Translations under genes and position numbers: made by a program
Assembly (NCBI RefSeq): GCF_000832065.1
Contig: NZ_JXQM01000010.1
Coordinates: 1 to 64,000, forward strand
Direction of reading: 5' to 3'
Length of the DNA: 64,000 nucleotides
Source of the DNA: Nitrosospira sp. NpAV
GTDB lineage: Bacteria > Pseudomonadota > Gammaproteobacteria > Burkholderiales > Nitrosomonadaceae
Notes under the pieces: generated by a model
What the model saw: the letters and a program-made list of their open reading frames with translations, nothing else
Databases searched by the model: none
Told to the model about the DNA's origin: nothing
Part shown: positions 38,061-54,407 of the stretch, in pieces
Numbering within the stretch: position 1 is the stretch's first letter
Layout of the letters: the number at the start of each line of letters is the position of its first letter

Positions 38061-38148
38061 GGTGCCCGGAGCCGGAATCGAACCGGCACGGGCGATTAGG
38101 CCCGAGGGATTTTAAGTCCCTTGTGTCTACCAATTTCACCATCCGGGC
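38061..38148 (-). tRNA. tRNA-Leu(TAA)
   Basis: The minus strand gives a class II tRNA: acceptor 5' GCCCGGA pairs with TCCGGGC, followed by A and an encoded CCA. The anticodon stem GGGAC..TCCC has loop CTTAAAA (anticodon TAA), with a long variable arm CGGGCCTAATCGCCCG and the T-arm GGTTCGATTCC. This corresponds to leuZ in the enterobacterial glyW-cysT-leuZ array. Confidence 0.97.
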
Positions 38149-38546
38149 GCTTTGATATACTGAATAAATTGTGCCGCTTACATCGGAGCTGCCGCCATTT
38201 TAGCGGTTGACGCATAACCCGGCAAAATCTGGCAATGATAAATGCTTGGCACCATAAAAAATTCTATCACAAGAAGAAAATATTTGGCGTACTGCCACGG
38301 TATTGGGGGGAGATGTTTCACGAGTTAGCCTTGCGCAAGGTGTCAAGGATTGTGGAAGGGCATATGCTGAGAATCAAGTCCACATATGCTTAAGCATTCC
38401 GCCGAGGTACCCTGGCAGGGTGCTATAAAAACCCTGTTTTCCGGCGCCGCTCTTTGCAGGAAAAGGATGATGACAGGTTGGCTGGAGTAAAAAAAAGCCA
38501 AATTTACCTTTTCGAGGATTGGGGCAATCACAGTCTTCCCGGATTG
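38149..38546. other. Intergenic region at the island edge, no gene seen
   Basis: Between the tRNA-Leu 5' end and the HTH gene I see no credible coding sequence. The minus strand just past the HTH gene stop gives no match to the catalytic half of an IS630 transposase. Confidence 0.4.
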
Positions 38547-39038
38547 CTATCTCTTACGGCCCAGCCGCTCCCAGGCCTGCATGACAGTTGCATTCATTCG
38601 CGGATACTGGACGAGCTTTGACCACCCATGGCGCCTTAGCAGCTGATAAACGGTGGATATCGATACCGACCGGCCGACAGCCCGCTCCAGTTCCACCTTC
38701 AGTTGAGAGACGGGAAGAGTTTCCGTATTTTGCGACTTGGCGACAAAAGAAGCGAGAAATTGCACTTCCTCATCCAGGCTCATCCTCGCATGGTTGCGCA
38801 GGCCTTTTTTTGTCTTGACCTGTTCCTGGCCAGCTACGATTCTCTGGAATCGGGTGCGTAGCTTGCCCGTACGACTCTTGGACAATCCTATAATGGTTGC
38901 GGTCTGTTCAAGCGACAGTCCAAACTCCAGCGGAAGAAGCAATGCCTGAGCCGCACGCAATGCGTCAACCGTTTTAGCTGACGCGATTCTTTCTTTCGCC
39001 GCCTCTACAAACTCTCGTCCCATTGGAGGTCTTGCCAT
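38547..39038 (-). CDS. IS630-type winged-helix protein (transposase N-terminal half)
   Basis: A 163-residue protein with two tandem HTH units. The first, about 50-75, is LSLEQTATIIGLSKSRTGKLRTRF. The second, about 125-150, is SVSISTVYQLLRRHGWSKL. This is the DNA-binding half of IS630-family transposases (orfA). The DDE catalytic half is not found downstream. It is therefore either a truncated IS product or a domesticated DNA-binding protein. I chose the ATG at 39038. An upstream TTG at 39056 is less likely. Confidence 0.75.
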   Translation of the reverse strand: MARPPMGREFVEAAKERIASAKTVDALRAAQALLLPLEFGLSLEQTATIIGLSKSRTGKLRTRFQRIVAGQEQVKTKKGLRNHARMSLDEEVQFLASFVAKSQNTETLPVSQLKVELERAVGRSVSISTVYQLLRRHGWSKLVQYPRMNATVMQAWERLGRKR

Positions 39039-39211
39039 TTTTATTGCTCGAGTCAATTTGTTGATAAATCAGCTTGGGCACGTCAGGGCATAGACGATCC
39101 AGCAGACCCGAAAGTACCCTACTTGCTGACGTCATGCTGTCCAGCCCTACTGGCGCTCTTTCAAAATTCCTATGTCATGGATGGGATGGAATCACCCTTC
39201 CCATCAATACA

Positions 39212-39541
39212 TCAGTATGAAGCCGCAGGACCTATTACCCAGCTGCAGTCTGAAATCAGGCACATTCCGCCGAACTCTTTCAGCCGTGGACGCAGCGCCA
39301 TTACGAGCCTTTCCGCCTGCTGTTCTTCGCACGCCAGAATCACCACGGCATTTTTTTCTTCCAAAGCGTAGTCGTCAGGACGCCGCTCGCCACGCGACCC
39401 CAGCCCTCCCGCATGTTTGATGAATGTGTATCCGCGAACATTCGCCGTCCTGCACAGCCCCAGCAAGTCCCCGAGCGCCTCTTCGTCCACGACGATTTCG
39501 ATTCGTTTCATTGCAATTAAGGTATCCGGTCTCATAATCAT
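39212..39541 (-). CDS. sbtB: SbtB-like PII-family regulator of bicarbonate transport
   Basis: A 109-residue PII-like protein. The N-terminal KRIEIVVDEEALGDLLGLCR and GYTFIKHAGGLGSRGERRP (T-loop region) lead to NAVVILACEEQQAERLVMAL and the C-terminal FGGMCLISDCSWV. These are features of SbtB, the trimeric nucleotide-sensing partner of SbtA. The ATG is preceded by GAGGGAACAAAGGC. It lies 117 bp downstream of sbtA on the same strand. Assignment rests on sequence pattern plus neighbourhood. Confidence 0.8.
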   Translation of the reverse strand: MIMRPDTLIAMKRIEIVVDEEALGDLLGLCRTANVRGYTFIKHAGGLGSRGERRPDDYALEEKNAVVILACEEQQAERLVMALRPRLKEFGGMCLISDCSWVIGPAASY

Positions 39542-39658
39542 GCCTTTGTTCCCTCAAATATACTCACGGTAGGAACCCGAATTTTTAGAATCAGAATATG
39601 CATTCGAAAAGTTCAGGAAATTAATGTCATCCACTCATAAATCCCAGTGCTGCTCCCG

Positions 39659-40636
39659 CTATCCCCCTCCTGCCAAGTGTTGGGCGATGGCGTAATAGGT
39701 GGGAACGCCGATCACGATGTTGAATGGGAAGGTTACTCCGAGCGATAGAGTCAGGTAAAAAGAGGGATTGGCCTCCGGTATCGCAAGCCGCATCGCCGGG
39801 GGTACCGCGATATAAGAGCAGCTGGCCGCAAGCACAGTTACCAGGGTGACGCCGCCTACCGAGTATTGAAGGTAGTAGTGGCCAACCAGCATGCCGACGG
39901 TGGCCCCGATTATGGGCATCAGTACACCGAAACAGACCAGGAAGACGCCCACTGATTTGAATTCCGATATTCTCTTCCCGGCCTCCATCCCCATGTCGCA
40001 CAGGAAGATGCACAATGCACCCATGAATATGTTTTCAAAGAATGGCTCTACCTTCTTGTAGCTCGGTTCCGACACCACGTAGCCGATACCCATGGACAAA
40101 AAAAGCAGCAAGATACTGCCGTTGGTGAAGGCCTCTCTCGCCAGGTGCTTGAACATTCCTTTCTCACCCTTTTGTGCACCGCCCATGATCTTCCGGGAAT
40201 ATCCTGCCAGGACAAGGCCAATCATGATGGCGGGAGACTCCATGATTGCCAGCATGATGACGGGATAAGCTTCGTAGGTTACGCTCATGCTGCCCAGCAT
40301 CGCCACTGCGGTCATGTAGGTTCCGGCGCTCACCGAACCATAATGTGCGGCGATAGCTGCTGAGTTGAGCGGATCAATCTTGCCGACGCCTCGCAAAATG
40401 ATATAGGCGACGATCGGCAGGCCAATCCCGAACCCGAACGCTGCGAACACCGCAGGCATAGCATCTCCGATCGGTGAATTAATGAACGCCCTGCCGCCAT
40501 GAAGCCCGATGCCTATCAGCAGATAAATCACAATCATCTTGTGCATATCGGGCGGGAACTTCAGATCCGATTTGACGAGACATGCGAACATCCCTAGGGC
40601 GAAAAAAAGAATCGCCGGCACCAGAAGACTAGACAT
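39659..40636 (-). CDS. sbtA: Sodium-dependent bicarbonate transporter SbtA
   Basis: A 325-residue inner-membrane permease with about ten transmembrane helices. The family pattern FPPDMHKMIVIYLLIGIGLHGGRAF, AAHYGSVSAGTYMTAVAML, VMLAIMESPAIMIGLVLAG, then LCDMGMEAGKRI and TVLAASCSYIAVPPAMRLAIPEANPS is that of the SbtA (DUF897) transporters. These import bicarbonate with sodium for carbon fixation. The ATG at 40636 is preceded by GAGGAGTTTATTA. With sbtB it forms a regulated bicarbonate-uptake pair. Confidence 0.92.
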   Translation of the reverse strand: MSSLLVPAILFFALGMFACLVKSDLKFPPDMHKMIVIYLLIGIGLHGGRAFINSPIGDAMPAVFAAFGFGIGLPIVAYIILRGVGKIDPLNSAAIAAHYGSVSAGTYMTAVAMLGSMSVTYEAYPVIMLAIMESPAIMIGLVLAGYSRKIMGGAQKGEKGMFKHLAREAFTNGSILLLFLSMGIGYVVSEPSYKKVEPFFENIFMGALCIFLCDMGMEAGKRISEFKSVGVFLVCFGVLMPIIGATVGMLVGHYYLQYSVGGVTLVTVLAASCSYIAVPPAMRLAIPEANPSFYLTLSLGVTFPFNIVIGVPTYYAIAQHLAGGG

Positions 40637-40819
40637 TAATAAACTCCTCTTGTTAATGGTCAACCTGGTAGGATTATTCCGATCATTCGTTCTTCCTACC
40701 ACTTCATTTAAGGCTCTCGGTCATGCACGCACTCGAGCCCTTGACTTGAACGTTTCGAAAGCCAGCTACTCAAAGGCAAATAACTCTCCAGTTTCCGCAA
40801 TTGCTGCGGAAATTACAGG

Positions 40820-41085
40820 CATCGTCTGGTGATGGATAGCGCTTACGAAGGGGCGAAATACGGCAGTTTGCATTGGATCATGGCTTCATCCCGGCCGCAC
40901 CGCCCAAGCTCAATCAGCTCGAGTCTTCATGATATGACACAGTCATGTATCTGCGGTGTAACGAGATCGAGCGACTATCCAGGAGGCTGGAGGAACGCCG
41001 GTGCATCTTCTCTCGCTGCGAGAAACTTGATGTGATGTTCATTACCTTTATCCATTTTGCGTTGGTCATAGAGGGACTTAGATAG
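40820..41085 (+). pseudogene. IS5-family transposase C-terminal remnant
   Basis: In shifting frames the DNA encodes LVMDSAYEG, then GFIPAAPPKLNQLES, a stop codon, YDTVMYLRCNEIERLSRRLEERRCIFSRCEKLDVMFITFIHFALVIEGLR and TAG. This is the C-terminal region of IS5-type DDE transposases (NEIERLFRRLKGFRRI...FSRYEKLDVMFLGFIHFA pattern, with the catalytic Glu). The gene is disrupted by a frameshift and an internal stop, and its 5' part is missing. Confidence 0.75.
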
Positions 41086-41289
41086 CGTTAACAGGCCCCT
41101 AACTGAAGAAAAAATGCAAACATCGTGAACTCACCGAATTTATCTCGTGATAAAGGATTCAAATTCTGGTTGCTGAGAAATTAACATACCGAACGTTAAG
41201 AAAACATTTTCTATGCGTGATGTATTTGTGAATGTGATAATAATTGCCCCACTTTCGAATTAAATTTGTACTTCCTTGCCAAACCCACG

Positions 41290-41311
41290 CTGAAAATAAT
41301 ATTATTTTCAG
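41290..41311. repeat. Perfect 22-bp AT-rich palindrome
   Basis: CTGAAAATAAT is directly followed by its reverse complement. The remaining DNA between the IS5 remnant and the NuoM-like pseudogene is AT-rich and gene-free. It may be a regulatory dyad or a trace of an insertion end. Confidence 0.5.
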
Positions 41312-41374
41312 AAATAATATTCATAATGACTAGAATCGAGAATTAAAAAAACAGAGTCTTAACGCCTTGAAATG

Positions 41375-42140
41375 TGGGCTTTGAGTAATTCCCTGGACCC
41401 CATCGATCGGTACGCTGTTCTTAACGCTCATTGCCCGGCAGGAACGCAGATGTAGTCCGCAATCTCAGCAATCTTTTTGCCGGCATCATTTTTTTCTCAT
41501 CTGTTATCCGCTGTTCAGTTTTGATTCCCACGATGCGGGACTGCAATTCAGTAAGCATTTCTCGATCAATCTCAAGGTTGGCAGTACCTATGCTCTAGGC
41601 ATCGATGGGCTGTCGCGATCTATGATGACGTTCGACTATAACGCCCCTCGCTCCCTCCAACATAACCCGCGGCGTCTAGGAATATTACGGAAACATACTC
41701 TTGATCGAATTGGGAATGCTGGACGTATTCCTCTCCCAAGATGAGTCTCTCTTCTGTATCTTCCGGAAGATAACCTTGATTCCGATTTTTTTCTGATAGA
41801 TCGCCGGGGTGGAAAGCGGCGGCGAGCCTTAACTTCGTGCATACGCAATGGGGGCTCGATCTTCACACTGATCAGCCTCATTGTCGTGTATCAGGTGCCA
41901 GAGCATGTTTCCCTGATCAGCGCGGTAAGCCATATTTGGGAAAACGTGCCGAAAGATCAGCAGATCTGGACATTCCTCGGCTATTTATGATCAGATTCGG
42001 AGTCGAGATGCCTATCTTCGCTGCATGGATAGCTACCGCCTGGTTCATGCGGAAACCCCTCGGTCAATATTCTGCTACCCCTGCTCGGGATGATGGCTCG
42101 CTAACGCATACCAGAACGCCTAACGCCAGCCTGCATGAAC
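41375..42140 (+). pseudogene. Decayed NADH-quinone oxidoreductase subunit M-like gene
   Basis: Reading in changing frames gives SIGTLFLTLI, GRNADVVRNLSNLFAGIIFF, FDSHDAGLQFSKHFSINLKVGSTYALGIDGLS, EYYGNILLIELGMLDVFLSQDESLFCIF with ITLIPIFF, SIFTLISLIVVYQ, QQIWTFLGYL and IRFGVEMPIF. In this order they match the NuoM/NdhD family (F-D...GIDGLS, L-L-L-E-A-G-M-L-G-V-F, T-L-I-P-M-F-F-L, QIWIFLAFF...FAIKMPIFPFHTWLPDA). Several frameshifts and stops, and loss of the C-terminal half, make it non-functional. Coordinates are approximate. Confidence 0.7.
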
Positions 42141-42245
42141 GCAGCATTTAGTGCAATCGTGCGAGCAAATCAATCTACTGTATTCAGACTTTGCATCTAT
42201 GGGCCAATAATTATCGTGTTTCTCTCTTCCATCACAGCCCATGAT

Positions 42246-42551: not shown

Positions 42552-43079
42552 ATGGAAGATAGCTACGCACGCCTGCTGAGAGCGGCTAAAGAGCTCAGGG
42601 GAGCCAAGAATGAAGCCGCTGTCGCTTCGCTGCTCAACATCTCGGAGCAGGCGCTCCATAATTGGAAAAGCAGAGGCGTCCCACGAAGAAATTTAATTGA
42701 AATTGAAGCCAGGATTGGCGCTTACCCGAGGTGGATCGCTACCGGGGAAGGCGACATGAATGCTGGAATGTGGTCCAATCAATCCACCGAATCTCTTATT
42801 TTCGATGTGATAAATGCGATGAGGTTTATGGCACCGGAAGACGTGCGTTTAATGGCGGAATTATCTAAAAGATTTAGCAAAGAAAAGCACAACGCCAATA
42901 TTCAGAAGAAAACTCCTAATATCCGAAAGCCCGCTTCTGCTCACCTATCCTGTTCCGCCGCCTTCCCATTCTGGTCAGACCGAAGAACTATTGAACGGAG
43001 AACAATGGACAATCCAACATGGCACGGGACTAAAGACAGGCGGAAATACGAAAGGAATGCAACGAACCGCCAAAGTTGA
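42552..43079 (+). CDS. CI-like helix-turn-helix repressor
   Basis: A 175-residue regulator. The N-terminal domain (about 5-65) is of the Bacteriophage CI repressor type: ARLLRAAKELRGAKNEAAVASLLNISEQALHNWKSRGVPRRNLIEIEARIG (in part), a typical CI HTH ending in YPRWIATGEG. The C-terminal part is polar and basic, with no peptidase domain visible, so self-cleavage of the LexA type is not expected. AAAGGAG precedes the ATG by 12 bases, longer than usual. Three dyads upstream are candidate operators. Found in the island next to mobile remnants. Confidence 0.7.
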   Translation: MEDSYARLLRAAKELRGAKNEAAVASLLNISEQALHNWKSRGVPRRNLIEIEARIGAYPRWIATGEGDMNAGMWSNQSTESLIFDVINAMRFMAPEDVRLMAELSKRFSKEKHNANIQKKTPNIRKPASAHLSCSAAFPFWSDRRTIERRTMDNPTWHGTKDRRKYERNATNRQS

Positions 43080-43174: not shown

Positions 43175-43669
43175 ATGAAAATTGTTGAATTGAAGCAACA
43201 GATATCGCGACATTCACTTGAAGAACTTCAGCGTTCTCATTACATCCTTGAGGCGCTAATGGCGGGCCTATCCCCCCACACTCGGAAAGAGCTTGTTAGT
43301 CTGCTCCAAACTTTATCCGAGGGTGCGGCGTCTCGGGAATCATCTGATTCTATTCGTCAAAGAGCCCTACAGATTGTATCCGGGATCTGCAAACCGGCTC
43401 CGATTCCAGAGCAGGGTCATGTAAGAACCACGCCACGTGAATATCAACAAAGATCAGGAGAAAGACGGCAACATGATAGACGGCAGCAACCCGCCAATTC
43501 TGGTAAACCCTGGACAACACAACAGGAGCAAGTTTTAAGAACTCTCGCTGAGCAAAATGTTCCGGCAAGACGTATTGCACTAAAATTAGGCAGAACCTCC
43601 ACAGCAATTCAATCCAAGGCCAAGGAAATTAATGTGCCCTTGAATCCGGTCAAAATGTCGGCAACCTAA
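43175..43669 (+). CDS. Putative HTH-type regulatory protein
   Basis: A 164-residue protein with a helical N-terminus (ELKQQISRHSLEELQRSHYILEALMAGL), a disordered Arg/Gln-rich middle, and a C-terminal Myb/SANT- or GcrA-like HTH: KPWTTQQEQVLRTLAEQNVPARRIALKLGRTSTAIQSKAKEI. The function is not known. AAGGAAGCCAAAGAAT precedes the ATG. It lies 95 bp downstream of the CI-like gene on the same strand and ends just before a strong terminator. Confidence 0.6.
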   Translation: MKIVELKQQISRHSLEELQRSHYILEALMAGLSPHTRKELVSLLQTLSEGAASRESSDSIRQRALQIVSGICKPAPIPEQGHVRTTPREYQQRSGERRQHDRRQQPANSGKPWTTQQEQVLRTLAEQNVPARRIALKLGRTSTAIQSKAKEINVPLNPVKMSAT

Positions 43670-43807: not shown

Positions 43808-44404
43808 TCAGAGGCGGCGACGGCGAGCCACCATGCCTATCATGGCAAGACCGGCTAACAGCATTGCATAGGCTTCGGCTTCGGGGACAGGTGCGAGAAA
43901 GCCACGAATCTCCCCGGCCGGGAAAATATTGGAGTGAATATTGGCGTAGGCGGTACCTCCGTCCAGTCCTGCCGCCAGTGCATTGAATGCGCCGCTGACC
44001 GTGCCCCCGTTAGCGGCAATGAATGCCGGGTTGTAACTTGACGCATCCGACATGTCGAAGGTGCGATCATAAGTGCCCGATGCCACGCCGGAGGGAAAGT
44101 CCGTGAATGTGGGTAGCGTAGTCGCTACACCGATCGTACCGGCTCCAGGTACAGCCGTACAGCAATGGATATGCGAAGCGGTAACATTTCCCTGAAGGTC
44201 ATTGAAACTCTCCTCAACCCGCATCGTCACCAGATCGAAATCAATGGTGATCCTCGCCATACCATTGCCAGGAGAGTCATTCGGCGGGGCTTCGCTGAGC
44301 CCATCAAGTGGAGTTGTGTATACGATCTGGTGGGCAGAGGCGATAGTGGACATGGCAGTGACTGCCATGAAAAGTGATCCTGCAAACAAGGCGCTGAGTT
44401 TCAT
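43808..44404 (-). CDS. CHRD-domain PEP-CTERM protein
   Basis: A 198-residue exported protein. A signal peptide (LFMAVTAMSTIASA) precedes a CHRD-type domain: VYTTPLDGLSEAPPNDSPGNGMARITIDFD, then TASHIHCCTAVPGAG (with the typical H-I-H), and GGTAYANIHSNIFPAGEIRG. The C-terminal signal VPEAEAYAMLLAGLAMIGMVARRRR is a PEP-CTERM variant (Pro-Glu-Ala). Probable surface or matrix role. It ends at the bidirectional terminator. Confidence 0.9.
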   Translation of the reverse strand: MKLSALFAGSLFMAVTAMSTIASAHQIVYTTPLDGLSEAPPNDSPGNGMARITIDFDLVTMRVEESFNDLQGNVTASHIHCCTAVPGAGTIGVATTLPTFTDFPSGVASGTYDRTFDMSDASSYNPAFIAANGGTVSGAFNALAAGLDGGTAYANIHSNIFPAGEIRGFLAPVPEAEAYAMLLAGLAMIGMVARRRRL

Positions 44405-44856
44405 GATCTTTTATCCTTTATAGGGTTAACTGCCAGATGAGATGGCAAGAGAATGATCAGCAAATCGTGAAACGGCATGACCAGAAACATGGAACACAAA
44501 CAAAGCTGAAACCATTGTACATATCAGCATTGGGTTTTCAATAGTACTTTCTGGCTCATCAACGCGCTTGGAGATCCTGCGTTAGTTTTCCAATCCCCCC
44601 ATTCAATGCTTACTGGCTTTTATGATCATTTTTAACGAGAATACCAGGGAGTTGTTCTATCTGGCGGAGCGGAAGAATTCTTCATATCCTGCTCCCATTA
44701 CCAATCTGGCTCGCGTAGATCCCGCGAAGCAATCTCGCAAGAGATGAGGGTTGCAGTAAAATTGAAAATTTACCGCATGATACTTTCCGGCGTTCCCTCG
44801 CAACTTGCCCTAATCTGAGGCCGGACCTTTCAGGATATTTGTCATCCTCCCAATCA
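44405..44856. other. Intergenic region between divergent genes, no gene seen
   Basis: This is the upstream region for both the CHRD protein and the sensor kinase. No coding frame with domain support is visible, and no clear promoter or riboswitch could be assigned by eye. Confidence 0.4.
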
Positions 44857-46767
44857 ATGATTAAAAATTTAACCATTAGATCACGCCTGATCCTTATTCT
44901 CGCCGTCCTGGTGGTATTTCTGCTAGGAATTGAAATGCTCGGCCTGTTCGGCATGAGTAATGCGATCGAAGGCTTGAGAACCGTTTACCATGATCGCGCC
45001 ATTCCGCTTAAACAGGTCGCTGAAATTGAATCGCTGCTGTTGCGGAACCGAATCGCTGTCACGGCGGCCCTGATGATGCCAACGCCCGAGACTATTCGAA
45101 CCAAAACCGCGGTGGTTGACCAAGATCTCGCGAAAATGACGCAGGTCTGGCAAGCCTATATTTCGAGCCATCATGGTGCGGAAGAAAAGGCGCTCGCCAC
45201 ACAATTTGCCGAGGATCGGGATAGATTTATCACGGAGGGAATAAAACCGGCGGTTATTGCTTTACGTAAAAATGAAATCGGGGAAGCGTATCGAATACTT
45301 ATAGAAAAGGTTCGCCCTCTTTATACACCGGTCGATGCAAGCATCAAGGCTCTGCTTAAGCTGCAGCTGGATGGAATCAGCCAGGAATATGACCGGGAGC
45401 AGAGCCGCTACGAAACCATACGTAACATTCTGGTTGCGTCGATAGGAATCGCTCTGGTGCTGGCAGCACTAATCAGTGTCGTACTCAGCGATGCAATCTT
45501 CCGACCTCTGGAAAATGTGGTAAAAATCGCTAGGGGCGTCGCCGTTGGTGATTTTATGCAGGAAATCGAGGTACGCTCGAAGGATGAAATCGGCCAGCTT
45601 ATGCAAGCCCTAAAGGAAATGCGAGATAGCCTGGTGGACACCATTGGTCAAATACGCGATAGCGAAGCGCATACCCGCGCTTTACTGAGTAACCTAATTG
45701 ATGGTGTTGCCTCGATTGACGAACAGGGAGTGATTAAAACTTTTAATCCGGCAGCCGAACGAATTTTTGGTTATGCGGGGAACGAAATTATCGGGCGGGA
45801 TGTTAATCTTCTGTTCCCGAAACCGCAGCCGGAACAGGATGAGTACGCTGACGACTTCAGGCAGTATCTGGAAGCGGGAAAACCCAAGGCTCTTGGTGTA
45901 CCCAGTGAAGTGACCGGCCTGCGCAAGAGCGGTACAGTGTTCCCCATGGATCTTGCCGTAGTCGAAATGCATGGGGGAGAACACCGCATGTTTGTCGCTA
46001 TTGTGCGCGATATCAGTAAACGCAAGCTGGAGGAAGAACAGAAGGCACGTTTGATGGACGAACTGGAAAGCGCCAATGAAGAATTAAGAAATTTCGCTCA
46101 TGTGGTATCTCACGATCTTAAGGCGCCATTACGCGCCATCGGCGCGTTGGCGGACTGGCTTTCCACGGATTATGCGGACAAGTTCGATGATGAAGGCAAA
46201 GAACATATGCGCCTGCTTGTCAGTCGGGTGCATCGCATGAGTAATCTGATCGATGGTATATTGCAATATTCGCGCGTAGGCCGCGTTAGAGAGGCGCTGG
46301 TTGAGCTGGATCTCGAACAGGTGGTCCATGAGGTAATTGATCTCTTGTCCCCGCCCGCAAATATTGCCATCAGAATAGAAAACCCCTTGCCGCGCATCAT
46401 CGCGGAGCCTACCCGCATTCAACAAATATTCCAGAACCTTCTCTCCAATGCTATTAAATACATGGATAAGCCCCGCGGCGATATTCGCATTGCCTGTAGT
46501 ATTGAAGGTGAACGATGGAAGTTCGGTATCATCGACAATGGACCCGGTATCGAGGCCCGTCATTTCGAAAGAATTTTTCAGCTATTCCAGACGCTGGCCC
46601 CGCGCGATAGGATAGAAAGCACCGGTGTTGGACTGGCCCTCGTGAAAAAAATCGTGGAGATGTACAGTGGGGAAATCTGGATTGAATCGAAAGCCGGTAT
46701 CGGCAGCACATTCTTTTTCACCTTACCCAAAATCGCAGCAAACATTGACCCTAAATCCGGTAGGTGA
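44857..46767 (+). CDS. Membrane sensor histidine kinase (4HB-HAMP-PAS-HisKA)
   Basis: A 636-residue hybrid-free kinase. Transmembrane helix 1 (LILILAVLVVFLLGIEMLGLFG) is followed by a four-helix-bundle MCP-type periplasmic sensor (about 30-185). Transmembrane helix 2 is VASIGIALVLAALISVVLS. Then come HAMP (FRPLENVVKIARGVAVGDF), PAS (LLSNLIDGVASIDEQGVIKTFNPAAERIFGY), HisKA with the phospho-His in FAHVVSHDLKAPLRAIG, and HATPase_c (FQNLLSNAIKY, DNGPGIEARHFERIF, TGVGLALVKKIV). The ATG at 44857 is preferred to an in-frame TTG at 44839. The response regulator at 47005 is the likely partner. The final codons lie within a TIR element. Confidence 0.93.
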   Translation: MIKNLTIRSRLILILAVLVVFLLGIEMLGLFGMSNAIEGLRTVYHDRAIPLKQVAEIESLLLRNRIAVTAALMMPTPETIRTKTAVVDQDLAKMTQVWQAYISSHHGAEEKALATQFAEDRDRFITEGIKPAVIALRKNEIGEAYRILIEKVRPLYTPVDASIKALLKLQLDGISQEYDREQSRYETIRNILVASIGIALVLAALISVVLSDAIFRPLENVVKIARGVAVGDFMQEIEVRSKDEIGQLMQALKEMRDSLVDTIGQIRDSEAHTRALLSNLIDGVASIDEQGVIKTFNPAAERIFGYAGNEIIGRDVNLLFPKPQPEQDEYADDFRQYLEAGKPKALGVPSEVTGLRKSGTVFPMDLAVVEMHGGEHRMFVAIVRDISKRKLEEEQKARLMDELESANEELRNFAHVVSHDLKAPLRAIGALADWLSTDYADKFDDEGKEHMRLLVSRVHRMSNLIDGILQYSRVGRVREALVELDLEQVVHEVIDLLSPPANIAIRIENPLPRIIAEPTRIQQIFQNLLSNAIKYMDKPRGDIRIACSIEGERWKFGIIDNGPGIEARHFERIFQLFQTLAPRDRIESTGVGLALVKKIVEMYSGEIWIESKAGIGSTFFFTLPKIAANIDPKSGR

Positions 46768-47511: not shown

Positions 47512-48147
47512 ATGAAGACCCCATCAGGAATCGAATTGCATCCAGCCATACAGGCAGGCGGAACCATTGAGGCATTACGCAAGGCGGCTATCACTTGCCG
47601 CGCCTGCCCATTATGGAAAAATGCCACACAAACAGTCTTTGGCGAAGGTCCATCCCGCGCAACCCTCATGTTCGTGGGTGAACAACCGGGAGACCAGGAG
47701 GATCTCGCAGGCCATCCGTTCGTCGGTCCCGCGGGCCAGCTTTTGACCCGGGCAATGGCGGCGGCTGGTATTCCACGAGAGCAGGTTTATGTTACCAACG
47801 CGGTCAAACATTTCAAATTTGAACTTCGTGGCAAGCGCCGCCTCCACAAGAAACCCATCGATGCAGAAATTACCGCCTGCTACGCCTGGTTGAAACGTGA
47901 AATCCAAGTTGTCGCCCCCAGCCTCCTTATTGCACTGGGTGCAACGGCCGTACGTTCCTTATTGGGCCGCGCAACACCCGTTATGGCTAACCGCGGCAAA
48001 TTGCAAGAGTATGCGCCAGACATGTCATTGCTAATTACCGTCCATCCCTCATTTTTGCTGCGCGTGCCCGAGCAGGAGAAAGATAATGAATATCGCCAGT
48101 TCGTAACCGATCTCAAACTTGCAAGGCGATTCCTGCGGAGCACTTGA
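47512..48147 (+). CDS. UdgX-type uracil-DNA binding/cross-linking protein
   Basis: A 211-residue member of the uracil-DNA glycosylase superfamily. Motif A is FVGEQPGDQEDLAGHPFVGPAG (from residue 55) and motif B is LITVHPSFLLR. The insert RGKRRLHKKP (residues 106-115) matches the KRRIH loop unique to UdgX, whose His forms a covalent bond with abasic DNA. Cysteines at 29, 32 and further on suit the iron-sulfur cluster. UdgX binds uracil-DNA tightly and is not a general turnover enzyme. The neighbouring genes give no obvious pathway. Confidence 0.9.
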   Translation: MKTPSGIELHPAIQAGGTIEALRKAAITCRACPLWKNATQTVFGEGPSRATLMFVGEQPGDQEDLAGHPFVGPAGQLLTRAMAAAGIPREQVYVTNAVKHFKFELRGKRRLHKKPIDAEITACYAWLKREIQVVAPSLLIALGATAVRSLLGRATPVMANRGKLQEYAPDMSLLITVHPSFLLRVPEQEKDNEYRQFVTDLKLARRFLRST

Positions 48148-48226: not shown

Positions 48227-48568
48227 ATGAAGCGGAAAAATCTGGGGTTTGGAAGTGGATTTCATGTCGTTATAGGCAATAAGGATTCCCAGGCGGCAGA
48301 AATGGTGTTACCGCCTGGTGACGCGGAAGGAGGTTCCGGCAATCGCCACCGCGGCGCTGACCAGTGGCTGTATATAGTGTCAGGAACCGGCATCGCCACA
48401 GTGAACGGCAAGCGCTATCCCTTAAAGGGGGGCTCACTCATGCTCATCGAACGCGGCGATAAGCATGAAATTTGCAATACGGGCAAGGATATGCTGCGCA
48501 CGCTCAATTTCTATGTACCGCCTGCCTACACCCATGGTGGCGAGGAATTACCTCGCGGACAGGATTGA
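48227..48568 (+). CDS. Cupin-domain protein
   Basis: A 113-residue single-domain cupin. Motif 1 is GGSGNRHRGADQWLYIVSGTG with metal-binding His and a Gln/Glu-like site. Motif 2 is GSLMLIERGDKHEICNTG with the second His. It could be a small metal-dependent enzyme or sensor, but the substrate is not deducible. The ATG is preceded by GGAGGCGGGA. It lies 6 bp upstream of the DUF72 gene, so the two are an operon. Confidence 0.88.
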   Translation: MKRKNLGFGSGFHVVIGNKDSQAAEMVLPPGDAEGGSGNRHRGADQWLYIVSGTGIATVNGKRYPLKGGSLMLIERGDKHEICNTGKDMLRTLNFYVPPAYTHGGEELPRGQD

Positions 48569-48574
48569 CAAGCG

Positions 48575-49438
48575 ATGGGTGAAGTTCGAATTGGAATTTC
48601 CGGCTGGCGCTATCCACCATGGCGGGGCGTTTTTTATCCCCCCGGTCTTCCACAGCATCGCGAGCTCGAATACGCCTCCGGTAAATTTCCGACGATAGAA
48701 ATAAACGGGACATTTTACTCGCTGCAACGGCCGGAAAGTTTCGAGCGCTGGTATAACGATACGCCATCGGGCTTCGTTTTCAGCGTCAAGGGAACACGCT
48801 ACATCACACATATAAAGCGTCTGCACAACGTCGACGATCCCCTCGCCAATTTCTTTGCTTCGGGGATATTCAACCTGCGAGAAAAGCTCGGCCCCATTCT
48901 GTGGCAATTCCCGCCCAGCTTCCATTATGATCCGGAAAGACTGAAGCATTTTTTCGAGCTTCTGCCGCGCGATACCAGCCAGGCGTTAAGCCTTGCCCGC
49001 CGACGCGAATCCCGTATGACCGGGCGCACATGCCTGGCGATCGACGCCACCCGCATACTACGCCACGCGATTGAGATTCGGCACGAAAGCTTCGTTGATG
49101 AGTCTTTCGTTCGACTGTTGCGTGAGCACAATATTGCATTGGTTATCGCGGATACGGCGGGAAAGTGGCCCTACCGGGAAGATATCACGGCCGATTTCAT
49201 CTATCTCCGTCTGCATGGTGACAAAGTACTTTATGCAAGTGGCTATACCCCTGACGCGCTAACCCGCTGGTCAACGCGAATTCGTGCCTGGCGCACCGGC
49301 TCTCAGCCTGATGACGCGCATCTCATCTCAGCGAAGCCCGCGCCCCAACGGCATTCCCGTGACATTTATTGCTATTTTGACAATGATATCAAAGTGAGGG
49401 CCCCATTTGACGCACACGACCTGATAGCAAAACTATAG
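48575..49438 (+). CDS. DUF72 family protein (YecE-like)
   Basis: A 287-residue DUF72/YecE-like protein. The N-terminal pattern VRIGISGWRYPPWRGVFYPPGLPQ, FPTIEINGTFYSLQRPESFERW and SFHYDPERLKHFFELLP (in part) is diagnostic, as is the C-terminal DIYCYFDNDIKVRAPFDA. Proteins of this family adopt a TIM-barrel fold of unknown activity. It is probably co-transcribed with the cupin. Confidence 0.9.
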   Translation: MGEVRIGISGWRYPPWRGVFYPPGLPQHRELEYASGKFPTIEINGTFYSLQRPESFERWYNDTPSGFVFSVKGTRYITHIKRLHNVDDPLANFFASGIFNLREKLGPILWQFPPSFHYDPERLKHFFELLPRDTSQALSLARRRESRMTGRTCLAIDATRILRHAIEIRHESFVDESFVRLLREHNIALVIADTAGKWPYREDITADFIYLRLHGDKVLYASGYTPDALTRWSTRIRAWRTGSQPDDAHLISAKPAPQRHSRDIYCYFDNDIKVRAPFDAHDLIAKL

Positions 49439-49618: not shown

Positions 49619-49891
49619 ATGAATTATCCGGGTTTATCTCACATGTTTCGCTCATCCAATGAGGCCCCCTTGCCCCTCGATTTCGATTCAGAGTCCATCT
49701 TAATCATCTGCCCTCACTGTTGCGGAAAATTTGAAGAGACAATCTCGCGGCTAAAGTACGAGCCGAGACTTTCTTGTCATTATTGTGAAAAATATATCGA
49801 TGTGAATCTTCTGGAGCTGCATGGCGCACTTGAATCAGTCCGCAAATCCACCCATGATCTCCTAAAGAAATTACTAAGTACTGACAAATGA
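49619..49891 (+). CDS. Small zinc-ribbon-like protein
   Basis: A 90-residue protein with two cysteine pairs, ICPHCCGKFEETIS and LSCHYCEKYID, separated by about 20 residues. This is a plausible zinc-ribbon. The rest is helical and charged (LLELHGALESVRKSTHDLLKKLL). No known family. An internal ATG at 49643 is an alternative start. Standing alone in the island. Confidence 0.5.
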   Translation: MNYPGLSHMFRSSNEAPLPLDFDSESILIICPHCCGKFEETISRLKYEPRLSCHYCEKYIDVNLLELHGALESVRKSTHDLLKKLLSTDK

Positions 49892-50349
49892 TTTTCCAGT
49901 GGAGAGACCGCTTCTAACGAGCAAGGGGATATATTCTTGTGTGGGGGATAATTCCGAGTTATAGCGTTTTGTCCATGTTGTACTTTAGTCCAGTATGTAA
50001 AGCACCTAAAATCGGTAAAATGCCATCCTGGGTTAGTTTTCCCAAAAAACATACGGACTCATTGGAAAAAATCGCCAGTGGACGGGTCGTAACCCCTGCA
50101 CTTTGGATCAGGAATCTTAATTTCGCCAGATACGCTGGGCAATGTCTCGGCCAACCTGAATATTTCTCTACTGATCATGGAGTTGCAACGTGGATCAAGA
50201 TGAAGATTGCCATGCCTACTGGCGTTTCTCAATGGTGTGTCAATTCATATACCGGTAGACATGTCGGAATAAGGAAGAGTGCGTGACCGCGAACATGAGC
50301 GACTCACGTATCTCAATCCAAGACCAACAGCTCATGGGGAGGTGAGTAC
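49892..50349. other. Gap before the second FeeM-like gene, no gene called
   Basis: A 115-codon plus-strand frame (49939-50286) begins with GTG, has no recognised domain and a very weak ribosome binding site. I do not call it. The gap otherwise holds no clear structure, apart from GGGGAGGTGAGTAC immediately before the next gene. Confidence 0.4.
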
Positions 50350-50937
50350 ATGGAGGCAAATTCCCAGCCCTGCAAGCTGCGCCGGGCTAGTCTGACATCC
50401 GACTCGATGGGTCGAAGACACATGAAAGCAATTTTCGGTTCCTACGTCATAAGCGCCGGAAAATCTCTTGATCGCTCCGAATGTCTGGTTAAAACATCAT
50501 ACTTGAGAAAGGGCTACTCGGCGGATCACATCATCACATCCGCAGACATGGTATTCGATGCCGAATGTTGCGGCAGGGTGGTTGGCACAGTGATGATGCG
50601 GCTGGATTCCGCCAATGGGTTATACGGGGACGCAACATATTCCCATGAACTGGATGCGATGCGGCTTTCCGGCCGCAAATTGGCGGAGCTATCCAGATTC
50701 GTCATCATGCCCGGTCAACCGACCAGCTCGGTCATGGGTGCGCTGTTTCACTTCGTCTATGTATACTCATATCTGATGAATGGCGTAACCGATCTCATCT
50801 GTGAGGTTGTGCCCAGTCACGTGGCGGCACAAAAACGGCTGCTCGGATTCTTACAGATTGCCGGTCCAAAGCGCTGCGAGCGGGTAGGGGTGGACGCGGT
50901 GCTATTGCATAGGACGTTTGCGGTTGAGTCATCCTAA
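50350..50937 (+). CDS. FeeM-like N-acyl amino acid synthase / GNAT acyltransferase (copy 2)
   Basis: A 195-residue paralogue of the protein at 34286, about 60% identical by eye over 165 residues. It shows RKGYSADHII, DAECCGRVVGTVMMRLDS, the hallmark AELSRFVIMPGQP, FHFVYVYSYLMNG, ICEVVPSHVAAQKRLLGF and VGVDAVLLHR. It has a basic N-terminal extension of 24 residues. The ATG at 50350 is supported by GGGAGGTGAGTAC. Copy 1 is flanked by coupled tiny genes; this copy stands alone. Confidence 0.75.
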   Translation: MEANSQPCKLRRASLTSDSMGRRHMKAIFGSYVISAGKSLDRSECLVKTSYLRKGYSADHIITSADMVFDAECCGRVVGTVMMRLDSANGLYGDATYSHELDAMRLSGRKLAELSRFVIMPGQPTSSVMGALFHFVYVYSYLMNGVTDLICEVVPSHVAAQKRLLGFLQIAGPKRCERVGVDAVLLHRTFAVESS

Positions 50938-51284
50938 ATCCAGAATTAAACTGGGCTGTCCGGGTTTCTCAAGTTAAGCGGGATTTAAAAGGCAATACCA
51001 GAATCGGATAGAGAGTTGGTTTGCGCAGCGACCACGTTGCTCAAAAGGCGGACAACCTGCTTTCTGAAATGGTGGCCGAAACTAACCTGATATGGCAAGG
51101 TGGATTAGGATTTAATTTAATGGTATAAAAATCCTTATGCCCCGTGAAAATTGGAAATGCACTTTCTGCTTTAAAGATAGAATCAAAAACTGGTGAAGCT
51201 GGATGGTGGATCCCATCCCTACCCTTCGGCTAACAGTTATCGCGGCTATGGCCATTAAAAATAGCCGCATCACCTTTTACATAA
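50938..51284. other. Intergenic region, no gene seen
   Basis: No coding frame is convincing. The FeeM copy-2 stop codon lies inside CCTAAATCCAGAATT, which resembles the left terminus of the dispersed TIR repeat (CCTAAATCTGG), but no matching right end was found. Confidence 0.35.
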
Positions 51285-51803
51285 ATGTTCTGGTTTGCCG
51301 CGTTGGTTAAAAGTCAAATGCGCCCCATTACTGTTGCTCTTGCCCTTATCACCATCATTACTCTGCCCCCCCCGGCAGCCGCAGACCTTACCGACCAGAT
51401 AATCCGCGCCCAGGTAGTTCAGATTGTCGACGGCGATTCACTTACTATAGTAATCGATGGGGAGATGGTAAGAGTGCGGCTGGCTGAAATTGATGCGCCG
51501 GAAAGCAAGCAGCCTTATACCAAGCGTTCAAAAAAATCCCTTTCCGACCTTTGTTTCTGGATCGAAGCGGAATTGACATCGATAACGAAGGATCAATATG
51601 GGCGCACTCTAGCCAGAGTCAAATGCAATGGTTTGGATGTCAACGCGGAACAAGTCAAGCGCGGGATGGCCTGGGTATACGAAGGGCATGCAAAAGATCC
51701 GAAATTGTACAAATTACAAGCGGAGGCCCGTGCTGCCAAGCGGGGGATCTGGTCAACCAAACACCCTGTCCCGCCATGGCAATGGATGAAGGAAAACCAT
51801 TAA
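51285..51803 (+). CDS. Secreted staphylococcal-nuclease-like protein
   Basis: A 172-residue protein. A signal peptide (ITVALALITIITLPPPAAA; ATG at 51318 is a plausible start) precedes a single SNase domain: VQIVDGDSLTIVIDGEMVRVRLAEIDAPESKQPY, SITKDQYGRTLARVKC, and NAEQVKRGMAWVYEGHAKDPKLYKLQAEAR. Catalytic Asp, Arg and Glu positions are retained. Probable periplasmic or secreted nuclease, cleaving DNA and RNA with calcium. Confidence 0.92.
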   Translation: MFWFAALVKSQMRPITVALALITIITLPPPAAADLTDQIIRAQVVQIVDGDSLTIVIDGEMVRVRLAEIDAPESKQPYTKRSKKSLSDLCFWIEAELTSITKDQYGRTLARVKCNGLDVNAEQVKRGMAWVYEGHAKDPKLYKLQAEARAAKRGIWSTKHPVPPWQWMKENH

Positions 51804-51917
51804 CCGGGTTATCTGCCGATCAATGGCTTGTATTAATTGTTCCACCTGCTATTCTTGGGTTGAAACATAGTTAACTGCTTCTTCGGAAAAGCCATTTTTA
51901 AATCAAGAGAGAAACGA

Positions 51918-52283
51918 ATGAAACTGAACACTCTTATTGCGTCCTTATGGTTAACGGTACTCATCCCATCCATTTCGTTTTCACACGAAGAATCCACTGA
52001 CATCCCGTCCACCCGTGCCCCGACAGGCCATGTTTATATTGCAAACCGCACAAATGGAGAGATCGTTTTCTACTTGGAATCGGCGAATACGATTCGAACA
52101 AAACACCACCTCCCTCCTGGAATGGGAGCAACATTTAGCGGAGCATCTGCGGATGCGTGGTTTAACATCCTCATTTACATTAATGACAAAAAGATAAATT
52201 ATGGCCTTGACGCAGGCAATCGATATTATCTGAAGCAGAATCCGGCCGGCATTCTAACTGTATACAAAATGCCTGAACACTGA
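51918..52283 (+). CDS. Small secreted protein of unknown function
   Basis: A 121-residue protein with a signal peptide (LWLTVLIPSISFS). The mature part has a beta-rich pattern (GHVYIANRTNGEIVFYLESAN, FNILIYINDKKINYGLDAGNRYYLKQN). The alternating hydrophobics suggest a small beta-sandwich. No family recognised. GAGAGAAACGA precedes the ATG. It lies 114 bp downstream of the SNase gene. Confidence 0.6.
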   Translation: MKLNTLIASLWLTVLIPSISFSHEESTDIPSTRAPTGHVYIANRTNGEIVFYLESANTIRTKHHLPPGMGATFSGASADAWFNILIYINDKKINYGLDAGNRYYLKQNPAGILTVYKMPEH

Positions 52284-52299
52284 GACACGTGACCGTTTG

Positions 52300-52420
52300 G
52301 GAAGCAAAGGCAGAAAACAGATACAGCGTTGAGCTTAGTCGGTTTCAGCGGCATGATCTTCGCGCAAAGAGCACTTTGGATATGGAAAGCATGACGGGCG
52401 CGGAGAAGTTGCTGCGGCAA
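52300..52420 (+). pseudogene. Integrase C-terminal fragment
   Basis: The frame encodes ELSRFQRHDLRAKSTLDMESMTGAEKLLRQ. This matches the C-terminal Box of tyrosine integrases (FQFKDLRAK...DMETMANARKLLGH), with the His-x-x-Arg core altered. It is a paralogous copy of the fragment at 53779-54070. No start or Tyr motif remains. Confidence 0.65.
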
Positions 52421-52809
52421 GTTTGTCGATCCGGCAATAACCAAGTTATTGACCCTTGGTCCCTTCGCCCGTCCAGCCCGTGGTATGGCAGTGCCGATAT
52501 AGGTACCGCAATACAGCGGGCTGCCATGCATCGCCCCATTCAAATTTAACCAATTTGTGCCCGCGTAACCCCGCCATCTCCCCCCATCGGCCGCTTCCCT
52601 CGTGTTCAACGCTTACAGCTTCGCCGGACTGCGGATTTATGGCAATTGATCAATCAATAACGCAAGCAGGTGTGTAAAATTAAAGCAAATCCCCACAAAT
52701 GCCCAACACAAAAATAAGGTTATTTCCACACTCAATGTGATAGTTTTACGCAAGATTCCTTAAAAAATAACAACGGCGCAATTTAATCCCAAAGGAACAT
52801 AAGATAAGG

Positions 52810-53136
52810 ATGGACCCTGCTCTATTATTGGTTGCGATTGAGCTTGCCGAAACTGACCCTCCGCACGAAACTAAGGTTACCCTTATTTTTGATGGGCTTT
52901 TAATTTCAGGCTTTATTACCAGCGAAAACGAATACTTAATGCATCTCGAAAATGCGAAATATCTCAAAGTTCCACAAGAGACAAACCAAGATTCGTCCGA
53001 CCCTACTTTTATCCACCTTCGAGACGCTACGTACTACCAACCTCGTGAAAATCCTAACCTACAGAATATAGGCGGTTACTTTCGCGTTCCGCTTGACGCA
53101 GTCATAGGGTTCGCTTTCGGCAGCGAATTAAAGTAG
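52810..53136 (+). CDS. Hypothetical protein, possible GvpU-like fold
   Basis: A 108-residue soluble protein (MDPALLLVAIELAETDPPHE, then VTLIFDGLLISGFITSENEYL, and a C-terminal VPLDAVIGFAFGS). The short beta-rich core G-L-L-I-S-G-x-I-x-S recalls GvpU-type gas vesicle accessory proteins, but this is weak. No gas vesicle genes are present. AAGGAACATAAGATAAGG precedes the ATG. Function unknown. Confidence 0.5.
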   Translation: MDPALLLVAIELAETDPPHETKVTLIFDGLLISGFITSENEYLMHLENAKYLKVPQETNQDSSDPTFIHLRDATYYQPRENPNLQNIGGYFRVPLDAVIGFAFGSELK

Positions 53137-53275
53137 ATACGCTGGGCCCGAGCGATAGCGTTGGACAAGTATCTGCAATTCTGTCTGGCGGCGGCCCGGC
53201 GCTTGAAGAGGGATTCTACGAGGGGACGGGCATGAAGGAATTCCGTGGATTGGGACGCAAGAGGCGTGAAGTCTT

Positions 53276-53551
53276 TTACACTTCTGGAGGTTCCAAGCTC
53301 AGGCCGGACATCACGATGATCTCCATTGGCGCGAGATGACTGAGATTGGACGCTCTGGCTATCACGTCCTCTTCCTGCAAAAGCTGATACTGAAATGCCC
53401 CCTCGTACATGTCCTCTACCAGCAGCTGCACCACTCTCTTTGGCCATCCCATCATCCACCGGTTCGCGATCTCAATTCCGATCTGTCCCGATTGCAATAG
53501 CATTTCCCGAATTTGATCCGGGTATATGTCCGAGTTGTAAAGTGCCTTCAT
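53276..53551 (-). CDS. Small hypothetical protein
   Basis: A 91-residue acidic protein (MKALYNSDIYPDQIREMLLQ, GIEIANRWMMGWPKRVVQLL, EDVIARASNLSHLAPMEIIV). Helical, no recognised domain. The ATG is preceded by AGGAGAATAAAA, a good ribosome binding site, which is the main reason for calling it. Its 3' neighbour is an uncharacterised stretch in the opposite orientation. Confidence 0.55.
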   Translation of the reverse strand: MKALYNSDIYPDQIREMLLQSGQIGIEIANRWMMGWPKRVVQLLVEDMYEGAFQYQLLQEEDVIARASNLSHLAPMEIIVMSGLSLEPPEV

Positions 53552-53778
53552 TTTTATTCTCCTGATTCATTTCAGGCGTTTTAACATAATTCGCGGAGTC
53601 TTGGGTAAGCAGACGAGCATCAGGGTTAGACAGCTTGGTTCGTTCCACCCCAGCTGCTCGCTCCGCGATCACCTGTTGAACGGCCTGGCTTCAACCGATC
53701 CATTCTTTAGGCCACGGGAACCGCAGGATTCCGCGCTTCTGGTTGTGACCAGAAAAAGTGAGTAAATATGCCTCTTCC

Positions 53779-54070
53779 ATGGACCCGAAGGGTCAGCAGC
53801 TAAAGCCTTCCGGATACTTCCCTAGCCAATTCGACCAGGCCCGCGACCTTGCCGAGAAGCAAGCCACGGAATTGGGTATTGAGTTCACTCGATTCCAGTT
53901 CAAGGATCTTCGGAACTAAGTCTGTATCTGATATGGAAACGATGGCGAACGCGCGTAAGCTGCTGGGTCATTCTACTGAGTCAATGACCGCCAAATATGT
54001 GCGGTCCAGGGTCGGAGAAAGAGTATCCCCGATACAGAAATCCAGCTATGACAAACGCGATAAATCCTGA
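53779..54070 (+). pseudogene. Frameshifted integrase C-terminal remnant beside tRNA-Cys
   Basis: Frame 1 reads GIEFTRFQFKDLRN and then stops. After a frameshift, frame 2 continues SVSDMETMANARKLLGHSTESMTAKYVRSRVGERVSPIQK. Together they are the C-terminal half of a tyrosine integrase, including H-S...Y with the active-site Tyr. It ends 56 bp from the tRNA-Cys 3' end, the expected location for an integrase of an element that used a tRNA as attachment site. No intact N-terminal half is seen. Confidence 0.8.
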
Positions 54071-54126
54071 ATTTGGAAAACGTTTTCCAAATCTCTATTC
54101 AATGTTTTTGTAAGCCTTTGATTCAA

Positions 54127-54200
54127 TGGAGGCGGGGGTCGGAATCGAACCGGCGTAGACGGCTTTGCAGGCCGCTGCATGACCACTCTGCCACCCCGCC
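54127..54200 (-). tRNA. tRNA-Cys(GCA)
   Basis: The minus strand gives a 74-nt tRNA. Acceptor GGCGGGG pairs with CCCCGCC, with T and an encoded CCA at the 3' end. Anticodon loop CTGCAAA (anticodon GCA) and T-arm GGTTCGATTCC. It corresponds to cysT of the enterobacterial array. Confidence 0.97.
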
Positions 54201-54332
54201 ATTGTTGCGCAACCAGAATGGGTTGCATGACAATGCAATAGCAAAAACTGAAAAGGGAAAACGGACTTCGGCAAAGGCGCATTAGCTGCATTTACATGGC
54301 CTCTTGCTAAAGAATCCATTTTCCCTGCAAAC

Positions 54333-54407
54333 TGGAGCGGGAAACGAGGCTCGAACTCGCGACCCCAACCTTGGCAAGGTTGTGCTCTACCACTGAGCTA
54401 TTCCCGC
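54333..54407 (-). tRNA. tRNA-Gly(GCC)
   Basis: The minus strand gives a 75-nt tRNA. Acceptor GCGGGAA pairs with TTCCCGC, then T and CCA. Anticodon loop TTGCCAA (anticodon GCC) and T-arm GAGTTCGAGCCTC. It lies 132 bp upstream of tRNA-Cys on the same strand and downstream of pgsA, matching glyW. Confidence 0.97.

Follow-up and report, generated by a model that had tools for sequence, protein, structure and literature searches.

The tRNA-Gly-Cys-Leu array of Nitrosospira as a probable genus-wide integration hotspot with two docking genes

INTRODUCTION

In Escherichia coli, the three tRNA genes glyW, cysT and leuZ follow two protein-coding genes in the order uvrC-pgsA-glyW-cysT-leuZ, and genomic islands with P4-type integrases are known to insert at the 3' ends of tRNA genes. 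We analyzed the corresponding array in a 64,000-nt stretch (the window) of the 3.45-Mb draft genome of Nitrosospira sp. NpAV (labelled G000), where the anticodons are the same as in E. coli and 16 kb separates tRNA-Cys from tRNA-Leu (leuZ). The best explanation, to which we give a probability of roughly 0.7, is that the Gly-Cys-Leu array serves throughout the genus as an integration hotspot, with tRNA-Cys and leuZ as its docking genes.

The process itself is already known, since both tRNA-array hotspots and phage attachment sites (attP) built on a tRNA 5' half have been published, and this locus is a clear example of it. A report on Dickeya describes different clusters at glyW-cysT-leuZ (PMC9765074). 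The Dickeya site holds a biosynthetic cluster, whereas the Nitrosospira site holds a genus-wide signalling and repair block plus changing cargo, and in one Nitrosospira relative the 5' half of leuZ is used as well. In Pseudomonas fluorescens SBW25, the account of an island at tRNA-Cys(GCA) places copies of tRNA-Cys on both sides, as we find in relatives of the window, but that island is a single element of ~121 kb, whereas Nitrosospira carries several small or decayed insertions (PMC9897764). Integration into a tRNA 5' half is "seldom encountered" in bacteria according to one review, which describes attP sites with a tRNA 5' half in cyanophages (there tRNA-Leu) and with archaeal pTN3-type integrases (PMC8371274). 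For pTN3-like elements, the same review states that the restored tRNA takes its promoter from the element, and we propose that this may also hold in Nitrosospira. Titles and opening lines of abstracts on Nitrosospira islands or prophages at tRNA-Leu mention nothing on this locus, which is not proof of absence.

RESULTS

Genomes and methods

The same-genus set comprised 23 genomes (G000 plus G001 to G022). Adding 18 relatives from outside the genus (including G023 to G036 and G040) gave a total of 41. We called tRNA genes with ARAGORN, assigned protein domains with Pfam, and located window genes in relatives with tblastn. One genome, G002, is 80% complete and has no true pgsA match. In a pgsA+uvrC tree, the window clusters with G012 and G021 with support of 100/100, and several inner branches are weak. 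The nearest named pgsA records come from Nitrosospira and from Nitrosomonadaceae metagenome-assembled genomes.

The array is split throughout the assessable genus

ARAGORN detected three minus-strand tRNA genes in the window and no others, in agreement with the preliminary description of this DNA. Two upstream open reading frames (ORFs) are presumably pgsA and uvrC, as they are named in that description.

54333-54407, minus: tRNA-Gly(GCC), first gene of the array
54127-54200, minus: tRNA-Cys(GCA), used at its 3' end by integrating elements in the genus
38060-38148, minus: tRNA-Leu(TAA), leuZ, third gene of the array, now displaced; an attachment site from its 3' side and, in G010, through its 5' half
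54486-55058, minus: ORF taken to be pgsA
55113-56933, minus: ORF taken to be uvrC

Both tRNA-Cys and leuZ lie on one contig in 16 of the 23 same-genus genomes, and the array is split in all 16. The spacing is 14.7 to 48.6 kb in 14 of them, ~139 kb in G022 and ~170 kb in G019; the two closest relatives of the window, G012 and G021, have 48.6 and 15.1 kb. No distance could be obtained from the other seven, because the genes are on separate contigs (G005, G011, G013, G016, G018), because pgsA has no true match (G002), or because tRNA-Cys is missing from the fragment (G017). The tRNA-Leu of G017 is split, and its locus reaches the contig end 7.6 kb past tRNA-Gly.

Outside the genus, a compact Gly-Cys-Leu array stands beside pgsA in five of the 18 relatives (G023, G026, G034, G035 and G036), with a Cys-Leu gap of 13 to 540 bp. 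The gap is 2.1 kb in G025, and G024 has neither tRNA-Gly nor tRNA-Cys within 20 kb past pgsA. The remaining 11, judged from match coordinates only, have their best Leu match at least 17 kb from pgsA, on another contig, or not found (G030). We also surveyed 80 named pgsA loci, many of which end early at contig ends. Leu(TAA) lies less than ~200 bp from tRNA-Cys or an extra tRNA-Gly in 15 of these and 3 to 5 kb away in four; in the other 61, it is not in the available stretch. Gly-Cys-Leu is probably one ancestral array. The uninterrupted array that the preliminary description looked for in relatives thus exists in five outgroups, but not in the close relatives, which are split in every assessable case.

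Several tRNA-Leu(UAA) genes and Cys-Leu gaps outside the window have features of their own. In G017, ~225 bp interrupts the anticodon loop (L161, 9718-10028); the insert looks like a group I intron by eye, a reading for which Rfam returned no group I intron match at either threshold. The tRNA-Leu(UAA) match is likewise in two pieces near the same place in G032 (L181) and G033 (L182). The Cys-Leu gap of two sister lineages contains an apparent recQ (by eye) and a small conserved ORF (L035, 12101-13963; L036, 12686-14560). By coordinates, Leu lies on the same strand ~17 kb downstream of pgsA in G040 (G040:C1:163366-180765) and ~23 kb downstream in G032 (G032:C15:48955-72922); these genomes belong to other families and possibly represent independent splits of the same array.

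A conserved block occupies the gap

The middle of the window interval is a block of six genes.

43808-44404, minus: CHRD/PEP-CTERM gene (Pfam)
44839-46767, plus: histidine kinase (HK; Pfam), ortholog in 21 of 23 genomes
47005-47418, plus: response regulator (RR; Pfam)
47512-48147, plus: UdgX (Pfam UDG; match to solved UdgX structures)
48227-48568, plus: cupin gene (Pfam)
48575-49438, plus: DUF72 gene (Pfam), in 21 of 23 genomes

The UdgX product matches the solved UdgX structure 6ajo with an E value of 2.6e-54, and its GKRRLHK aligns with GKRRIHK, the KRRIH-type motif of UdgX. Located by tblastn, the block genes follow a single order, DUF72-cupin-UdgX-RR-HK-CHRD. The block, whole or reduced, is common to 21 of the 23 genomes, with HK and DUF72 missing from G002 and G017. 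All six genes are present at ≥80% coverage in 14 genomes; in the other seven that have the block, some genes are split, reduced, missing or outside the fetched stretch. UdgX is interrupted by ~17 kb in G012; G021 has a reduced version, and G005 and G016 each carry the gene in two pieces. A second HK-RR pair lies between UdgX and RR in 17 genomes and is absent from the window, G012 and G021. With all parts on one contig, the block sits between tRNA-Cys and leuZ in a single orientation in 15 of 16 genomes. Given that 21 of 23 genomes carry the block, the Cys-Leu separation is probably older than the radiation of the genus, and the block was probably gained at or near its base.

These data bear on the preliminary description, in which elements that integrated repeatedly in this lineage built a single 16-kb accretion island and pushed leuZ away. 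In its favor are the integrase remnants at both tRNA genes and the different cargo that G012 and G021 carry in the corresponding slots. The presence of the middle block in 21 of 23 genomes means that leuZ was already apart before this lineage arose, and the closest relatives are split as well, so this explanation is largely refuted and we consider it very unlikely. The part that stands is repeated integration at the array, given that both tRNA genes were reused, insertions are stacked in G008 and G011, and the cargo differs among genomes; the part that fails is a single recent island. Sharing of the whole 16 kb by relatives, named beforehand as evidence against an island, was found for the middle third, and the slots around it are variable. 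A single-element island can be ruled out, because the window has two different integrase remnants, no pair of att (attachment-site) copies, and a block common to 20 other genomes.

Integrases arrive repeatedly at both tRNA 3' ends

Integrase sequences adjoin the tRNA 3' ends in the window, 60 bp from tRNA-Cys and 162 bp from leuZ, and elsewhere in the genus.

53782-54067, plus: intB remnant, two frames that together cover the last 95 residues of a tyrosine recombinase; its start is 60 bp from the tRNA-Cys end
37563-37898, minus: intP4 remnant 162 bp from leuZ, in which the start of a P4-type integrase is joined to its residues 191-258

Both had been noted before as integrase remnants, and the comparisons bear this out. 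The two frames of the intB remnant match residues 220-263 and 264-314 of a full-length 314-aa tyrosine recombinase in G019. The ORF at 37563-37898 alone has no Pfam match; compared with P4-type integrases that are intact beside leuZ (e.g., in G021), it retains the first 25 residues and residues 191-258 (68% identity).

On the tRNA-Cys side, 20 genomes offer ≥1.5 kb of sequence (G002, G017 and G018 were left out), and 12 of them have an integrase or its remnant no more than 400 bp from the gene. The distance from tRNA-Cys is constant for each type: 60 to 75 bp for intB (six genomes, including the window), 70 to 71 bp for intC (three), and 162 to 164 bp for intP4 (three). Mapped on the pgsA+uvrC tree of 21 genomes, with labels that we assigned and "none" counted as a state, the integrase state at tRNA-Cys changes 11 times. 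In another lineage (L062), a relative of intB (65% over 312 aa) also adjoins tRNA-Cys.

Partial tRNA copies of the att kind are present in seven relatives: copies of tRNA-Cys in G008, G011 and G035, copies of tRNA-Leu in G005, G016 and G021, and a copy of the leuZ 5' half in G010. The tRNA-Cys fragment of G035 stands directly before leuZ. In G008 and G011, an intC element is closed by a 53/54-bp copy of the 3' part of tRNA-Cys, and an intB remnant lies 65 bp further. Because this is the usual distance of intB from the real tRNA, the insertions are stacked: a second element probably entered between tRNA-Cys and an older one, leaving the younger element next to the tRNA.

Downstream of leuZ, an integrase is present in seven of 22 genomes. 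The intP4 type starts 162 to 167 bp past the gene in five genomes (including the window) and 215 bp past it in G018, and an intC-like match lies at 84 bp in G006. In G021, an intact 416-aa P4-type integrase lies 164 bp past leuZ; ~22 kb beyond, 19 bp of the leuZ 3' end are repeated. The constant integrase position in five genomes and the 3'-end copy that closes the G021 element are as in known P4-type islands, whereas the window keeps only a truncated integrase and no closing copy.

A conserved 91-aa ORF of unknown function, without a Pfam match, also lies near tRNA-Cys.

53276-53551, minus: 91-aa ORF

Ten genomes, that of the window among them, have it downstream of tRNA-Cys. In a clade of five (G003, G007, G008, G009 and G013), it lies between pgsA and tRNA-Gly, a difference that a single change on the tree explains.

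A prophage entered through the 5' half of leuZ in one relative

Entry through the 5' half of leuZ was not part of the earlier reading. In G010, a 318-aa integrase gene ends ~102 bp upstream of leuZ. The element is ~61 kb long, and its far bound, 61 kb upstream, repeats 46 bp of the leuZ 5' half without a mismatch. This displaced half is preceded by the leuZ upstream sequence of the sister genome G006 (88% over 195 bp, including the 46-bp half); therefore, the element gave leuZ a new 5' half and a new flank. A displaced half and an element-derived flank, the two marks of 5'-half integration, are thus both found in G010 and are not found together in the window, where BLAST with the whole of leuZ detected no displaced half copy. 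The attP likeness to cyanophages and pTN3-type systems has its limits: here the element is a 61-kb Nitrosospira prophage, and its integrase is 29 to 30% identical to the ten phage records listed of 1007 matched.

A 65-kb viral record in IMG/VR has the identical integrase, the full leuZ and the half copy, and is G010's own. Counting that record, five viral contigs encode this integrase or a relative. Two of these contigs, which are alike here, encode a related integrase (58%) and repeat 43 bp of the leuZ 5' half at 95% identity; the copy adjoins the integrase gene but points against it, unlike in G010. Viral contigs hold eight exact 5'-half matches, three of them half-only (one being G010's own). 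For the 3' end, 80 of at least 120 reported matches were examined, and 40 are half-only; the two rates are not comparable, because the search patterns differ. A tRNA-Leu(UAA) 5' half also lies beside a 289-aa integrase gene in L205 (4196-5207) and L206 (315-1326), viral contigs that by eye encode a T7-like RNA polymerase. This arrangement resembles the attP of T7-like cyanophages, with Pfam support for one contig.

The sequence immediately upstream of leuZ in the window can be compared with the G010 prophage end.

38149-38271, minus: leuZ 5' flank, common to G012 and G021; part of it resembles the G010 prophage end

Similarity to the G010 flank, scored as z against 60 mononucleotide shuffles per pair, is 23.8 in G003, 9.4 in G012, 8.3 in the window, 8.0 in G013, 6.4 in G008 and 5.7 in G007; it is 0.1 in the sister genome G006 and at most 2.1 in the rest. 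The flank type, with labels that we assigned to 19 genomes, changes five times on the tree. From this sequence likeness, we infer that the window flank may be a relic of a G010-like prophage and that leuZ may be transcribed from it. Alternatively, the likeness could be plain promoter homology, with 5'-half integration having occurred once, in G010. The G010-type integrase is confined to G010 among the 41 genomes (E≤1e-30) and was detected in 0 of 300 genomes of the order (E≤1e-40; a draw that omits most of the genus), and the alignments to the window and its two closest relatives are short, all of which fits that alternative. Set against it, the similarity skips the sister G006 and appears in six other genomes, the G006-type flank instead precedes the displaced half copy of G010, and G013 keeps the C-terminal 41 residues of the same integrase (85%) 110 bp upstream of leuZ. 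We lean away from promoter homology but regard it as a real possibility.

A broader version of docking at leuZ is also conceivable, in which temperate phages repeatedly entered through the 5' half, bringing new promoters and removing leuZ from the Gly-Cys unit, and P4-type islands entered through the 3' end. If true, the array split and the turnover of the tRNA-Leu(UAA) promoter would share one cause. We hold this version to be doubtful, and rate it slightly lower than we otherwise would because the sole proven 5'-half prophage, that of G010, lies outside the Cys-Leu gap.

Cargo slots differ among relatives

At the same places, relatives carry different cargo, which together with the integrases at the tRNA 3' ends is what a hotspot is expected to show. 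The remaining window features are as follows.

49619-53136, plus: slot 1, variable cargo (90-aa ORF, FeeM, SNase-like nuclease, two small ORFs)
50350-50937, plus: FeeM acyltransferase gene (Pfam)
51285-51803, plus: SNase-like nuclease gene, slot 1
42552-43079, plus: CI-like repressor gene (Pfam Phage_CI_repr)
43175-43669, plus: 164-aa ORF (tblastn)
41131-42077, plus: NuoM/Proton_antipo_M gene fragment, slot 3, from the same displaced locus as sbtAB
39659-40702, minus: sbtA, slot 3 (Pfam)
39212-39541, minus: sbtB (P-II-like), slot 3 (Pfam)
38547-39056, minus: helix-turn-helix (HTH) gene, slot 3
30233-31226, minus: flhC and flhD (Pfam), with flhD the neighbor past leuZ in many relatives

Only G012 and G021 have counterparts of the 90-aa ORF and FeeM in this slot. 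The SNase-like nuclease is 89 to 92% identical in these two genomes, 53% in G001 (same slot) and 55% in G005. The CI-like repressor and the 164-aa ORF are common to G004, G012 and G021, and the 164-aa ORF also occurs in G002 and, weakly, in G006. Slot 4, between leuZ and flhCD, is variable in content. Two side observations concern this cargo: FeeM-type N-acyl amino acid synthase paralogues (64 to 65% identical) flank leuZ at 34286-34798 and 50350-50937, and a 504-bp stretch of the window (52642-53145) has an 81% identical second copy elsewhere in the genome, on a different contig (G000:C85; L187, 1229-1727).

The slot 3 cargo (38547-42077) is at this place only in the window; the same slot holds a 1191/1192-aa gene (PAS/GGDEF/EAL-like by eye) in G012 and G021 and ~250 bp in G004. 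The segment is colinear with a locus elsewhere in the same genome that also encodes DabA (L186) and with the orthologous locus of G005 (L188), which identifies it by sequence as an incomplete duplicate of a chromosomal inorganic-carbon locus. Window SbtA is 94% identical to the G005 copy compared with 83% to the other copy in its own genome, which suggests that the sbtAB segment moved between Nitrosospira lineages. Most of the cargo named in the preliminary description (sbtAB, FeeM and the CI-like regulator) is supported by Pfam. The "transposase remnant" at 38547-39056 is not a transposase, and we dropped that identity; an HTH protein adjoins sbtBA at other loci, and this is the HTH gene of the displaced copy. 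We also dropped a GC shift as evidence for an island, because in 1-kb windows GC is 44 to 53% in the interval and 49 to 55% in the flank past 54 kb, with no clear step between them.

DISCUSSION

The history that we propose begins in or near the ancestor of the genus, where a segment would have landed between tRNA-Cys and leuZ, with CHRD-HK-RR-UdgX-cupin-DUF72 as its remainder. Afterwards, elements with tyrosine recombinases kept arriving, three integrase types at the tRNA-Cys 3' end and the P4 type at the leuZ 3' end, and in at least one relative a prophage came in via the leuZ 5' half, restoring the tRNA with its own half and a new upstream flank. Decay of the elements would then leave truncated integrases and cargo behind, and the window would be one snapshot of this process, with an intB remnant at tRNA-Cys, an intP4 remnant at leuZ, a partly prophage-like leuZ flank, and the FeeM/SNase and sbtAB slots.

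For the first arrival of the block, a chromosomal rearrangement competes: an inversion or translocation with a breakpoint between tRNA-Cys and leuZ could have split the array once, with elements decorating it later. The block carries no integrase and could have come in that way, and leuZ is inverted in six of 16 genomes (G006, G009, G010, G015, G019 and G022). The far side appears rearranged too, since flhD lies past leuZ in many Nitrosospira compared with another protein (by eye) in the outgroups G026 and G036, and block genes exist elsewhere, as in G031, outside the family, with a DUF72 67% identical. However, searches of the outgroups G023 and G024 yielded no close relatives of DUF72, UdgX or HK; the block genes are missing or distant there, which is a better fit to acquisition than to relocation, and the sister lineages L035 and L036 have a different insert of 3 to 4 kb in the same gap. 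In the genomes of L035, L036 and L038, the best HK matches are 47% over half the protein, 28% and 30%. Overall, we judge a single rearrangement unlikely.

Several further observations, like the missing integrase of the block and the inversions of leuZ, weigh against the hotspot explanation. The split is not specific to the genus, given that 13 of the 18 outside relatives lack a compact array by pgsA or lack a Leu match. In G019, the block lies past leuZ and is inverted with it, both at least 170 kb from tRNA-Cys, and the same-genus G017 likewise yielded no close match to DUF72, UdgX or HK. No integrase was recognized at tRNA-Cys in eight of the 20 genomes or downstream of leuZ in 15 of the 22. 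The repeats of tRNA 3' ends that the preliminary description expected at both edges were not found: with 23 bp of tRNA-Cys or 20 bp of tRNA-Leu and up to three mismatches, only the genes themselves match in the window. Because leuZ is inverted in G010, it stands between the prophage and tRNA-Cys; this prophage demonstrates a mode of entry and did not itself open the Cys-Leu gap. Finally, the flank match to G010 spans just 24 alignment columns in the window and 48 in G012, and G021 scores only 2.1.

Under the hotspot explanation, 23 genomes of ammonia oxidizers document the dismantling of a conserved tRNA array by integration at two of its genes. The order of the stacked insertions is readable, and the cargo includes a second copy of bicarbonate-uptake genes. 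The G010 prophage adds a bacterial case of integration through a tRNA 5' half. The locus also raises a testable question, whether expression of tRNA-Leu(UAA) has been handed from host to phage promoters.

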